Origin: Methyloceanibacter marginalis
GTDB lineage: Bacteria > Pseudomonadota > Alphaproteobacteria > Rhizobiales > Methyloligellaceae
Direction: 5' to 3'
DNA: 32,812 bases
Assembly: GCF_001723295.1 (NCBI RefSeq)
Contig: NZ_LPWD01000037.1
Coordinates: 1 to 32,812, forward strand
Shown here: positions 22,628-26,948 of the stretch, piece after piece
How the letters are laid out: the number at the start of each line of letters is the position of its first letter
How positions within the stretch are numbered: position 1 is the stretch's first letter
The notes under the pieces: model-generated
The model's database searches: none
What the model saw: the letters and a program-made list of their open reading frames with translations, nothing else
What the model was told of the DNA's origin: nothing
Translations under genes and position numbers: made by a program

Positions 22628-23341
22628 ATGACGGAAAAACGCGACGTATCACCGCCGGCCGGGCCTTCGCCCCTCAGATCCTATGGGCGGCGCAAGGGCA
22701 AGCGCTTGAGCCCGCGCAAGGAGCGGCTCGTCGCCGAGTTGCTTCCGGCGCTCCGCCTCGGTCTTGAGGACGTAGCCCCGGAGGATCCATGCATGCTGTT
22801 CCCCCTGCCCGTGCGGGAGGTGTGGCTCGAGATCGGCTTCGGCTCGGGCGAGCACCTGCTGTGGCAGGTGGCACAGAACCCGGACATCGGCTTCATCGGC
22901 TGCGAGCCCTTTATCAATGGCGTCGCCAGCCTGCTCGGCGCCATCGAGGATCGGGGCCTGAAAACCGTCCGCGTCCATGATGGCGACGCGCGGGAGGTGC
23001 TCGCCTGGCTACCGGATGGTGGGATCGCCCGCGCCTTCCTCTTGTTTCCCGATCCGTGGCCCAAGAAGCGGCAGGCGAAGCGGCGGTTGGTCTCGCCTGC
23101 GCTCGTGGACGCCATCGCCCGTGTCCTGGCGCGAGGCGGCGAACTGCGCTTCGCCAGCGACGATGTGGAGTATGCCGGCCAGGCGCTCCGGGCCGTCAAT
23201 CGGAACGGCGCTTTCGATTGGCTGGCCTGCAAGGCCTCGGATTGGCGCTTGCGGCCGGAGGACTGGCCGGAGACCCGCTACGAGCGGAAGGCCTTGAGCG
23301 ACGGCCGCAAGCCTGTCTATCTGCGCTGGCGGCGTCACTAG
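22628..23341 (+). CDS. trmB: tRNA (guanine-N7-)-methyltransferase TrmB
   Basis: 237 residues. TrmB makes m7G46 in tRNA variable loops using S-adenosylmethionine. The SAM-binding motif is EIGFGSGEHLLWQVA, followed by FIGCEPFINGVASLL and the catalytic region FLLFPDPWPKKRQAKRRLVS, with DPWPKKR the family signature. The C-terminus reads ASDWRLRPEDWPETRYERKA. The start at ATG 22628 (MTEKRDVS) is chosen by homology; the ribosome binding site is poor, and upstream frame to 22505 is probably untranslated. The gene directly follows metK, the supplier of its cofactor, but is separated from it by a terminator. Confidence 0.95.
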   Translation: MTEKRDVSPPAGPSPLRSYGRRKGKRLSPRKERLVAELLPALRLGLEDVAPEDPCMLFPLPVREVWLEIGFGSGEHLLWQVAQNPDIGFIGCEPFINGVASLLGAIEDRGLKTVRVHDGDAREVLAWLPDGGIARAFLLFPDPWPKKRQAKRRLVSPALVDAIARVLARGGELRFASDDVEYAGQALRAVNRNGAFDWLACKASDWRLRPEDWPETRYERKALSDGRKPVYLRWRRH

Positions 23342-23354
23342 AGAGGAGCCTGCC

Positions 23355-23780
23355 ATGCGCGCTTTTGCCCTCGCCTTCGCACTCATCCTGCTGCCGACAG
23401 CGGCGTCTGCCTATATCGGCGCCGACTGCTATTCGGCTTGCGCGGCGCGGACGACGACCAACCCGGAATACAAGGCTTGCCTGGCGCGCGTGGCGGACGC
23501 CGCCGACGCCAAGCTCAACGAGGCCTACACGGCGCTGAAGGCCGCCATCCGAAGCTGGGCTACGGAGCTGGGGCAGCGCCCCGACCTCCAGCTCCAATCG
23601 CTGGTCGACGCCCAAAAGAGATGGATCGCCTATCGCGACGCCAACTGCACCTTCGAGGACCAGCTTGCTTTCGGGGGCACCGCAATCGGCGGCAACTATT
23701 CGGCGTGCCTGTGCGCGCTGAGCCTGGGGCGGGCAGGAGACTTCGCCCGCATTACCGAGCAGGTGATCCCCGTCGATTAG
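23355..23780 (+). CDS. Secreted lysozyme-inhibitor LprI-like protein (DUF1311)
   Basis: 141 residues with a signal peptide (MRAFALAFALILLPTAASA). The mature part contains the DUF1311/LprI pattern: an N-terminal helix CLARVADAADAKLNEAYTAL, then LVDAQKRWIAYRDANC, and a Cys-bearing tail NYSACLCALS. Seven Cys in the mature region suggest disulfides and a periplasmic or outer location. LprI of Mycobacterium inhibits lysozyme; most Gram-negative members are uncharacterised. GAGAGGAG lies six to thirteen bases upstream of the ATG and the gene is 13 bases after trmB, so it is probably co-transcribed. Function as an inhibitor is by family only. Confidence 0.82.
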   Translation: MRAFALAFALILLPTAASAYIGADCYSACAARTTTNPEYKACLARVADAADAKLNEAYTALKAAIRSWATELGQRPDLQLQSLVDAQKRWIAYRDANCTFEDQLAFGGTAIGGNYSACLCALSLGRAGDFARITEQVIPVD

Positions 23781-23823
23781 AAACCATCGTTGGAAAACAA
23801 GCGTTTGCTTGAGGCCAAGCCGC

Positions 23824-23851
23824 TTGAAACCCTCGGGAAAGCACGTATATT
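23824..23851 (+). promoter_or_regulatory. Sigma-70-type promoter of the rimP-nusA-infB operon
   Basis: CTTGAAA contains a -35 hexamer TTGAAA (23824-23829), and TATATT (23846-23851) follows after 16 bases. It is the only convincing promoter in the 178-base gap before rimP. Predicted transcription start is near 23858, giving a leader of about 100 bases that contains the hairpin at 23881-23908. Confidence 0.6.
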
Positions 23852-23880
23852 AGCGGTCGAAACTCATGGTTGATTTGATC

Positions 23881-23908
23881 AGGAGTGGGCTGCGGCCCGC
23901 TCCTTTTT
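23881..23908 (+). terminator. Leader terminator / attenuator candidate before rimP
   Basis: AGGAGTGGGC (23881-23890) pairs with GCCCGCTCCT-type sequence ending at 23903, with one wobble and a very small loop, and is followed by TTTTT (23904-23908). GTGGGC (23885-23890) can instead pair with GCCCAC (23915-23920), giving a mutually exclusive stem that would break the terminator. The arrangement lies downstream of the predicted promoter, so all operon transcripts would have to pass it. Confidence 0.65.
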
Positions 23909-23958
23909 ATTAGGGCCCACGCCTTCTGGCTGATTGGGGTCTTTGAGCCCTGCCGTCA

Positions 23959-24515
23959 ATGCCGAGCACTGCGACACCTAAAGAACGCCGCCTCGTCCGG
24001 GAAACGGACCAGGAGCGGACAGTCGCCGAGCTTGCCGAGCCGGTGATCGAAGAGCTTGGGTTCCGCTTGGTGCGGGTGAAGATCTCGGGCCGTGACGGCG
24101 GCACGGTGCAAATCATGGCCGAACGGCCGAACGGTGAGATGTCGGTGGACGATTGCGCCACGATCAGCCGGGGACTTTCTCCGGTGCTCGACGCCTACGA
24201 TCCGATGCCCGCGGCGTACAATTTGGAGGTCTCCTCCCCCGGCATCGACCGGCCTTTGGTCCGCCCGAGCGATTTCGCGTTATGGGCGGGTCACGAGGCC
24301 AAGATAGAGCTGAAGGAGCCGGTAGACGGACGTAAGCGCTTCAAGGGCACGATCGAGGACGTGGCCGGCGAGGAAGTGCATTTGAAAATTGAGCTGGATG
24401 GCAAGGCCGAGCCCGTGATTATCGGCCTTCCCTTCTCGCTCATTGGCGAGGCGAAGCTCGTCTCGATCCCGACGGCTTCAGGATGGATCTTTCGGGCAGC
24501 AAGCCCGTGCATTGA
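23959..24515 (+). CDS. rimP: Ribosome maturation factor RimP, 3' frame break
   Basis: About 185 residues after correction. RimP assists 30S subunit assembly. Typical stretches are EPVIEELGFRLVRVKISGRDGG, VQIMAERPNGEMSVDDCATISRGLSPVLD, and YNLEVSSPGIDRPLVRPSDF, followed by the C-terminal SH3-like barrel (FKGTIEDVAGEEVHLKIELDG to GEAKLV). As given, the frame runs without a stop into nusA. One missing base near 24466 would give LVLDPDGFRMDLSGSKPVH and a stop at 24513-24515, so the apparent RimP-NusA fusion is probably false. The last 15 residues are less certain than the rest. No clear ribosome binding site precedes the ATG. First gene of the operon. Confidence 0.9.
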
Positions 24516-24574
24516 GTTTTCCGCGGCGAGCGATGCTCCCGCGAACGAACGCAACTTGAGTTGGAGGCTAGAGA

Positions 24575-26255
24575 ATGTCCCAGGCAGGCGTGAGCGCCAA
24601 CAGACTGGAGCTCCTGCAGATCGCCGATGCGGTCGCACGCGAGAAGTCGATCGACGCGAGGTGGTGATCACCGCCATGGAGGACGCCATCCAAAAGGCGG
24701 CGAAGTCCCGCTATGGCAGCGAGAACGAGATCAAGGCCGAGGTCGATCCCAAGACCGGAGAGATCTCGCTGGCGCGGCTTCTGGAAGTGGTCGAGGACGT
24801 GACCATGGAAGCGACGCAGATTTCGCTCGCCGAGGCCCGCCGCAAGAACCCGGCCGCGCAAGAGGGCGACTTCATCGCCGAGCCGCTGCCGCCGCTCGAT
24901 TTCGGGCGCGTCGCGGCGCAGAACGCCAAACAGGTCATCGTGCAGAAAGTGCGCGAAGCCGAGCGTGAGCGCCAGTTCGACGAGTACAAGGATCGCGTCG
25001 GCGAGATCGTCAACGGTATCGTGAAGCGCGTCGAGTACGGCAATGTGATCGTCGATCTCGGCCGGGCCGAGGCCATCGTGCGCCGCGATGAGACCCTGCC
25101 GCGCGAGAACTTCCGCTATGGCGACCGCATCCGCGCTTATGTCTACGACGTACGGCGCGAGCAACGCGGACCGCAGATTTTCCTCTCCCGCACGCATCCC
25201 GAATTCATGGCCAAGCTGTTCGCGCAGGAAGTTCCGGAGGTCTATGAAGGCATCGTCACCATCAAGTCGGTTGCGCGCGACCCCGGCAGCCGCGCCAAGA
25301 TCGCCGTGGTCTCGCGCGATGCCTCGATCGATCCCGTGGGCGCGTGCGTCGGCATGCGCGGCAGCCGCGTGCAGGCCGTGGTGAACGAGCTTCAAGGCGA
25401 GAAGATCGACATCATCCAGTGGTCGCCCGACGCCGCCACCTTCATCGTCAACGGCCTTGCGCCCGCCGAAGTGGTCAAGGTCGTGCTCGACGAGGACGCC
25501 GAGCGGATCGAAGTGGTCGTGCCCGACCAGCAGCTGTCTCTGGCCATCGGCCGCAAGGGCCAGAACGTGCGGCTGGCTTCCCAGCTCACCGGCTGGGACA
25601 TCGACATCATGACGGAAGCCTCGGAATCGGAGCGCCGCCAGGCGGAGTTCGCCGATCGCTCGGCCAAATTCATGGCGGCACTGGACGTGGACGAGGTCAT
25701 CGCTCAACTGCTGGCCTCGGAGGGATTCTCCTCGGTGGAGGAAGTGGCCTTTGTCGAGCCGGACGAGATTTCCTCGATCGAAGGCTTCGACGAGGACACC
25801 GCCGAGGAGATTCAGGCCCGCGCCCGCGAGCATCTCGATAAGCTCGAAGCGGAGCTCGACGCCAAGCGCAAAGCGCTCGGCGTGACCGATGAGCTGTTGG
25901 AGGTTCCGGGGCTCACTACGGCGATGCTGGTCGCGCTCGGCGAGAATGGCGTGAAGACCGTCGAAGATTTGGCCGATTGCGCCACCGACGATCTCGCCGG
26001 CTGGAGCGAACGGCAGGATAAAGAGACCATCCGTCACGGGGGCTTCCTCGACGGCTTTGGCGTGAGCCGGCCGCAATGCGAGGACCTGATCCTTGCCGCG
26101 CGGGTGAAGGCCGGCTGGATCGACGCGGCAGACCTGGCCGCCCCGGAAGAAGAGACGGAAGGCGAAACGGACGGCGAGGCCGAGGCGGATACCGAGGCCG
26201 GTACGGAAGCACAAGCGGGCGAGGCGCCCGCGCCGATGACGCGCCTGCGTCATGA
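24575..26255 (+). CDS. nusA: Transcription termination/antitermination factor NusA, two frame breaks
   Basis: About 560 residues after correction. NusA binds RNA polymerase and modulates pausing, termination and antitermination. The N-terminal domain starts [20 protein letters not shown] at ATG 24575 with GGAGG 10 bases upstream. One missing C near 24655 restores [20 protein letters not shown]. Then come S1 ([26 protein letters not shown]), KH1 and KH2 ([45 protein letters not shown]), and two acidic helix-hairpin-helix repeats ([30 protein letters not shown]). A further missing G near 26235 gives the end APDDAPAS and a stop at 26253-26255. The acidic C-terminal tail is typical of alphaproteobacterial NusA. 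As an essential gene it is very unlikely to be truly disrupted. Confidence 0.94.
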
Positions 26256-26276
26256 GGCGATTAGGAGACAGAGCGG

Positions 26277-26948
26277 TTGCGGCTGGAAGCGGCAGAGCGA
26301 AACGAGACGCGGGAGCGGGCGGCGGAAACGCAGCGCCGCTGCGCCGTCACGCGCGCCCACCGCTCTAAGGACGACCTCATCCGCTTTGTGCTCGGGCCGG
26401 ACGACGCGGTCGTCCCGGACCTGAAAGAGAAGCTTCCCGGCCGCGGCGTCTGGTTGACCGCCGCCCACGAAACCATCGCCGAGGCGGTCAAACGCAAGGC
26501 TTTCGGCCGGGCATTCAAGGCCCAAGTCAAGGTCCAGGAGGCGCTTCCGGACCGTGTGGGAGACCTCCTCGCCGAGGCGGCTCTCAGGGCGCTGAGCCTC
26601 GCCAACAAGGCGGGGGAAGTGGTTTTCGGCCATTCGAAGGTCGAGGAAGCCTTGAGCAAAGGGCGCGTGATCGCCGTGATTCACGCCTCGGACGCGGCCG
26701 AAGATGGTTGCCGGAAACTTGACGGCAAGGCCCGCGCGTCGACGCAAGGGCGCGGTCTCCCCTCGATCTGCGCCTTTACCGCAGATGAATTGGGTTTGGC
26801 ATCGGGCCGGTCAAATGTGATACATGCTGCCCTAATCCAGGGTGGAGCGGCTCGAAAGTTTCTGGCGGCAGCCGAGCGCGCCGCGCGCTACCGCCAGGGA
26901 ATTTCCGCATTCGCGGACAACTACGGATTGGATACGGACCAAGAATGA
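26277..26948 (+). CDS. YlxR-YlxQ fusion RNA-binding protein (DUF448 + L7Ae-like)
   Basis: 223 residues. The N-terminal YlxR (DUF448) domain is seen at residues 20-65 (RRCAVTRAHRSKDDLIRFVLG, then VVPDLKEKLPGRGVWLTA), with the conserved GRGVW. Residues 95-200 resemble the L7Ae/L30e fold (ALRALSLANKAGEVVFGHSKVEEAL, then GRVIAVIHASDAAEDG), the domain encoded separately as YlxQ in Gram-positives. The combined form is usual in Rhizobiales. A TTG at 26277 with AGGAGA eight bases upstream is the likely start, since no ATG lies before the domain in frame except internally. The stop overlaps the infB start (ATGA). YlxR family proteins bind RNA and affect transcription or RNase P; the role here is inference. 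Confidence 0.9.
   Translation: MRLEAAERNETRERAAETQRRCAVTRAHRSKDDLIRFVLGPDDAVVPDLKEKLPGRGVWLTAAHETIAEAVKRKAFGRAFKAQVKVQEALPDRVGDLLAEAALRALSLANKAGEVVFGHSKVEEALSKGRVIAVIHASDAAEDGCRKLDGKARASTQGRGLPSICAFTADELGLASGRSNVIHAALIQGGAARKFLAAAERAARYRQGISAFADNYGLDTDQE

Follow-up and report, generated by a model that had tools for sequence, protein, structure and literature searches.

The stretch of DNA studied here (the window) comprises 32,812 nt of Methyloceanibacter marginalis and belongs to an assembly of 470 contigs and 80% completeness, which is therefore probably a metagenome assembly. By comparison of the RimP sequences the nearest named relatives of the host are Methyloceanibacter and other Hyphomicrobiales. 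Downstream of the leader considered in this paper the encoded domains follow each other in the order RimP, NusA, YlxR and IF-2 (rimP, nusA, ylxR, infB). In the deposited sequence rimP and nusA appear as one fused frame at 23959-26424, with what look like single-base deletions close to the rimP end and in the early part of nusA, a pattern as expected from assembly errors; the rimP frames of relatives mostly comprise 170-250 codons. The features of the locus are the following:

23355-23780, same strand as the leader: small lprI-like gene with a lysozyme inhibitor domain, between trmB and the leader
23824-23851, plus strand: sigma-70-type promoter found by a consensus scan, TTGAAA (23824-23829) and TATATT (23846-23851)
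23862-23886, plus strand: upstream competing hairpin (candidate antiterminator) with the arms 23862-23871 and 23877-23886 and an A-G mismatch at 23866/23882
23881-23904, plus strand: rimP-leader terminator hairpin of 10 pairs, with a GGGC-UGCG-GCCC core at 23887-23898 and a predicted energy of -18.7 kcal/mol
23904-23908, plus strand: terminator T run, the first T of which also closes the stem
23915-23920, plus strand: GCCCAC, an alternative partner of 23885-23890 that is present and was judged to lie outside the switch
23959-24465, plus strand: rimP, with RimP N-terminal and C-terminal SH3 domains, its reading frame being upset farther downstream by what seems to be an assembly error
24575-26070, plus strand: nusA, with a probable start at 24575 and NusA_N, S1 and KH domains in 24679-26070

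RimP is encoded in all 30 searched genomes of the host's family, and 29 of these (the host and 28 relatives) include DNA upstream of the gene, which is lacking at locus L031. The promoter, with its 16-nt spacer, matches the consensus at 10 of 12 positions, and the form TTGnnn-16/17-TATATT is found in all 29 leaders. From the position of the -10 element transcription would start near 23858. The terminator hairpin reads AGGAGTGGGC-TGCG-GCCCGCTCCT, and the leader from 23855 to 23911 folds with a z of -5.12, none of 200 shuffles folding equally well. In every one of the 29 leaders TATATT is followed by a CUCAUG-RUU element, exact or nearly so, and this by CAGGRGUGG...CUUUUU; the end of the T run lies 28-98 nt before rimP, at the host locus 50 nt (23908 to 23959). 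Promoter and leader are also kept in the 18 of the 29 loci in which the lprI-like gene does not separate trmB from the leader. Searched with a covariance model of the leader, the host's own genome gives a single match. The promoter and the strong hairpin with five T, both claimed in a preliminary description of this DNA, are thus real and are conserved in all 29 family genomes that could be tested, and because both are kept in position and sequence its reading of the locus as leader termination before rimP-nusA is sound.

For a wider comparison we used 130 rimP-upstream regions from 148 Hyphomicrobiales genomes with RimP (left out were five genomes of the host's family, which are counted in the family set, two loci already sampled and 11 others) and 84 regions from 93 further alphaproteobacterial genomes with RimP, the host excluded (left out were one Hyphomicrobiales member and eight others; three regions end early at contig ends). 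A hairpin of at least 8 pairs with RRGUGG on the left arm lies before rimP in 122 of the 130 Hyphomicrobiales regions and in 51 of the 84 others, where conservation of the GUGG letters is by construction, as the survey required them; it was not found in eight and 33 regions, respectively. Together with a T run (4 or more T among the following 10 bases) the hairpin is present in 109/130 and 49/84 regions, against 0/130 and 4/84 on the reverse strand and 0/390 and 0/252 among shuffles. Thirteen of the 122 hairpin-bearing Hyphomicrobiales regions scored fewer than 4 T; inspected by eye, 11 of them have no T run, while at L123 and L142 a T run is visible. In the named relatives L082, L084, L086 and L087 the script found the hairpin and no T-run terminator; a GRGUGG...CCGCUC hairpin without T run stands upstream of rimP in these four as well as in L180, L195 and L224. 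Because some Hyphomicrobiales have the hairpin without T run, the rimP hairpin may serve for something besides intrinsic termination. The terminator pair 23886/23899 is a U-G wobble, and in the order and class hairpins G stands opposite U in 145 of 173 cases and A in 22, the U being required by the hairpin search.

The terminator core is not new. Naville and Gautheret described in 2010 a rimP-leader consisting of a GGGc...gCCC stem followed by a U run and located 4-130 nt upstream of the gene, and ranked it first among the genes most often under attenuation (PMC2965389, as far as the accessible part of that paper goes). The host hairpin precedes the same gene and operon, has the G-rich GGGc left arm, the C-rich gCCC right arm and the U run, and with its 50 nt from rimP falls inside the range given there. 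As it shows every positive feature of the rimP-leader, the terminator belongs to the described kind. The structure had initially been reported as not recognised as an alphaproteobacterial element. This stands with respect to Rfam, since not one family attains the gathering score anywhere in the 32,812-nt window, three weak matches with E up to 5 in 23500-24200 all stay far below the cut-off, and RF01770 'rimP' (cut-off 47 bits) does not match the leader, its sole match in the genome up to E 10 lying elsewhere with 19.5 bits and E 1.56. It does not stand with respect to the core, which is the rimP-leader motif. We assume RF01770 to be the gammaproteobacterial tandem rimP leader, which, in the part of PMC2965389 that describes it, resembles the host leader in combining a terminator with a potential antiterminator and differs in having a second tandem terminator with a CCCg...cGGG motif. 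Among the literature matches listed, going by their titles, none describes this leader in alphaproteobacteria or the way in which the level of NusA, RimP or IF2 is set there, and in PMC8060035 there was no match for autoregulation terms.

The preliminary description proposed GCCCAC (23915-23920) as a competing partner of the terminator's left arm. The sequence is indeed a perfect complement of GTGGGC at 23885-23890, but in relatives its presence is at the level of chance: a downstream partner matching 6/6 (G-U allowed) within 15 nt occurs in 15 of 29 family leaders (median p 0.27 against shuffles; locus L017 was anchored at a wrong place in this count), and in the wider set, with 141 of 243 regions covered, the median p is 0.557 in the order (8/95 at p <= 0.1) and 0.535 outside (3/46). 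The predicted downstream stem (-12.1 kcal/mol) is weaker than the terminator (-18.7 kcal/mol), and by the time GCCCAC is made the polymerase is already beyond the T run, so that this partner can hardly decide termination. For these reasons we rejected the downstream stem. A partner of the type GYYCAY occurs at about the same place in seven family leaders (L002, which is the host, L008, L013, L014, L018, L019 and L020). After the T run (23912-23923; also in L008, L013, L014 and L018) the sequence reads GGCUCAY or GGYYCAY and resembles a second copy of the 5' CUCAU.

Missing from that description was a better candidate competitor on the other side, the hairpin 23862-23886 with the arms ACUCAUGGUU (23862-23871) and GAUCAGGAGU (23877-23886), which ties up the base of the left terminator arm. 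As 23881-23886 is common to both stems, the upstream hairpin and the terminator are mutually exclusive. Its predicted energy is -5.9 kcal/mol alone and -7.0 kcal/mol in the growing RNA against -18.7 kcal/mol for the terminator, and being so much weaker it would act only kinetically or with help. When the fold of the exposed RNA is predicted at 2-nt steps of lengthening, the upstream hairpin is the best fold with the RNA reaching to 23886-23894; at 23896 another fold is best by a small margin, at 23898-23900 the upstream hairpin is combined with the inner GGGC/GCCC stem, at 23902 the fold is mixed, and from 23904 on it is the full terminator. A corresponding upstream hairpin is predicted in all 27 family leaders (out of 29) that could be parsed, with -6.3 to -9.3 kcal/mol.

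Within the family the bases of this stem pair in 97.4% of 234 cells in 26 distinct rows, as compared to 24 to 48% for slid versions. Covariation of the leader was named in the preliminary description as a check, and a lack of compensatory changes in its stems as a refutation: within the host's family the 26 distinct rows contain no double-sided change in an upstream stem pair, and one of 14 pairs of the RNAalifold consensus, located in the terminator, has one. Between families the sequence of the upstream stem turns over while the layout is kept, as in L056 where UUCUU.G.GUC faces GAC.G.AAGAG. Overall, the covariation support for the switch is modest.

The natural sequences upstream of the terminator were also compared with their dinucleotide shuffles in a folding test that enforces pairing with the base of the arm. 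This test covered 121 of the 130 Hyphomicrobiales regions plus the 29 family leaders, and from the class the 44 of 84 regions with RRGUGG in a T-run terminator. The median p was <= 0.1 in 19 of 40 Hyphomicrobiales families (four expected) and <= 0.5 in 35 of 40, and 18 of the 44 other class leaders reached p <= 0.1, as did 12 of the 29 leaders of the host's own family taken singly. Among 44 other terminators used as a control the number was seven, with a median p of 0.465. Arm-base pairing was not found in the order families f2, f26, f31 and f46 (best p 0.45 to 0.64). A short-duplex test of the upstream side, on the same 141 regions as the downstream one, gave no significant result by family (4/34 at p <= 0.1, binomial p 0.45), the median p being 0.333 in the order (16/95 at <= 0.1) and 0.396 outside (8/46).

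The letters of the two arms are associated. With each order family and each class genome represented by a single leader, leaders with a GAG arm have upstream CUC only in 28 cases and CCC only in two, those with a GGG arm CUC only in 10 and CCC only in 15 (Fisher p 2e-5). However, the counts of CUC and CCC are near those of dinucleotide shuffles (34 observed against 28.2 expected, and 17 against 15.7), so base composition explains part of this association. When arms were swapped the own arm was weakly preferred (27/43 and 23/41; p 0.04 raw and 0.024 after subtracting shuffles), for which rank tests only were used, because folds that cannot exist push up the shuffled mean for the GGG arms. Taken from the sequence comparisons, the upstream hairpin 23862-23886 is likely, though not proven, to be a competitor of the terminator.

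In attenuators with alternative terminator and antiterminator hairpins the two folds share one RNA strand. The host leader is like these systems in the shared strand, and differs from them in being very short and in having neither a conserved peptide nor a known ligand. The general rimP-leader has no visible antiterminator in what the accessible text of PMC2965389 reports, whereas the host leader has a predicted upstream competitor which recurs across families. We propose, with a probability of roughly 0.6, that the leader is a transcription attenuator with an upstream antiterminator that controls rimP-nusA-infB, probably under feedback by NusA. RNA polymerase would start near 23858 and reach the strong intrinsic terminator within about 50 nt. 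The upstream hairpin would form first and sequester six bases at the bottom of the left terminator arm; beside this hairpin only the inner GGGC/GCCC part of the terminator could form. If it persisted while the polymerase stands on the T run, transcription would continue into rimP; if it dissolved in time, the full terminator would form and the RNA would end. The default of such two-fold attenuation is best read as lying toward termination.

NusA is the most likely regulator because the operon encodes it, because B. subtilis nusA is controlled by NusA-stimulated leader termination (PMC12288461, in the part available) and because the E. coli operon is repressed by NusA (as cited in the accessible part of PMC2965389). 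The B. subtilis leader is like that of the host in that termination in a 5' leader controls entry into nusA; there it is known from experiment, according to the same portion of PMC12288461, whereas for the host it is deduced from the DNA. In the attenuator proposed here NusA could aid folding of the terminator or pausing, or bind the 5' ACUCA strand of the upstream hairpin, and high NusA would then lead to a stop of its own operon. Such feedback, which the preliminary description had suggested, is plausible.

For the NusA KH domains the RNA site of the M. tuberculosis rrn type is reportedly a single strand containing ACUCA. The host NusA matches 2asb (2.5e-56), the chain of the M. tuberculosis NusA-RNA structure, and this structure reportedly contains a sequence similar to ACUCA, which makes a contact of the KH domains with the 5' ACUCA strand attractive. 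CUCA occurs within 30 nt of the -10 element in 27 of 29 family leaders and AACUCA in 23 of 29; in the one rrn leader that was readable ACUCA was not found. Such a direct contact is a guess on our part.

Several other explanations have to be weighed. The leader could be a plain NusA-stimulated terminator as in B. subtilis, without antiterminator. In this case NusA or RNA polymerase would recognise the conserved GUGGG arm, and pairing with the upstream RNA would be incidental. For this speak the precedent itself (the available text of PMC12288461), the general rimP-leader, for which the accessible part of Naville and Gautheret (PMC2965389) sees no antiterminator and names NusA as the best candidate regulator, the predicted terminator being far stronger than the upstream stem, and the short-duplex test. 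As pairing with the arm base nevertheless beats shuffles in 19/40 families and 18/44 class leaders against 7/44 other terminators (p <= 0.1), and as the architecture is kept despite the turnover of its sequence, we regard an antiterminator-free leader as possible but rather unlikely. A similar, rather low probability is given to the same switch being operated by another effector, such as a cold-shock (CspA-type) RNA chaperone, RimP, a ribosomal protein or temperature itself. CspA acts as an antiterminator in the E. coli rimP-nusA operon. In the same bacterium cold shock raises the transcripts of the operon, and two terminators are located upstream of rimP (in the accessible part of PMC6511841), while feedback by RimP is raised as a possibility in the part of PMC2965389 at hand; for none of these candidates, however, was evidence found in the sequence.

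It is also conceivable that the terminator mainly ends transcription of the preceding gene (trmB, alone or together with the lprI-like gene) or yields a stable small RNA of about 50 nt, with the promoter of rimP located further downstream. Of the 29 family loci 28 have a trmB-like gene upstream and 11 an lprI-like gene between it and the leader, on the same strand as the leader at the host locus, and a small RNA gene would likewise have its promoter and terminator this close together. But in all 29 loci a promoter separates the terminator from those genes, the consensus scan of 23300-24700 gives no promoter-like site besides 23824-23851 (shuffle mean 0.2), and the hairpin precedes rimP in many members of the class, which makes this explanation quite improbable. 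Ending an upstream transcript and attenuating rimP are mutually compatible, and the terminator may also end trmB transcripts. Attenuation by a leader peptide, to which an ATG at 23866 opening a frame of 15 codons (MVDLIRSGLRPAPFY) across the terminator could point, is extremely unlikely: in the 29 leaders of the family the frame opened at this position varies from 0 to 67 codons, several leaders having at most four, and since neither frame nor sequence is kept we rejected it.

Going beyond the attenuator at the host locus, one ancient switch of about 50 nt might set NusA in many or most Alphaproteobacteria, NusA capturing the first-made CUCA (or CCCA) strand and thereby deciding on transcription of the operon; uncaptured, this strand would fold onto the base of the rimP-leader terminator. 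This is a speculative extension, which we consider doubtful and put forward as such.

NusA, RimP and IF2 connect transcription with the making of ribosomes. A class-wide rimP leader with a named competing strand represents a compact and testable model, and it bears on the question left from 2010, in the accessible part of that work, which protein reads the rimP attenuator, and how. For the cell itself, the switch probably allows it to set the amount of its own transcription factor that is made.
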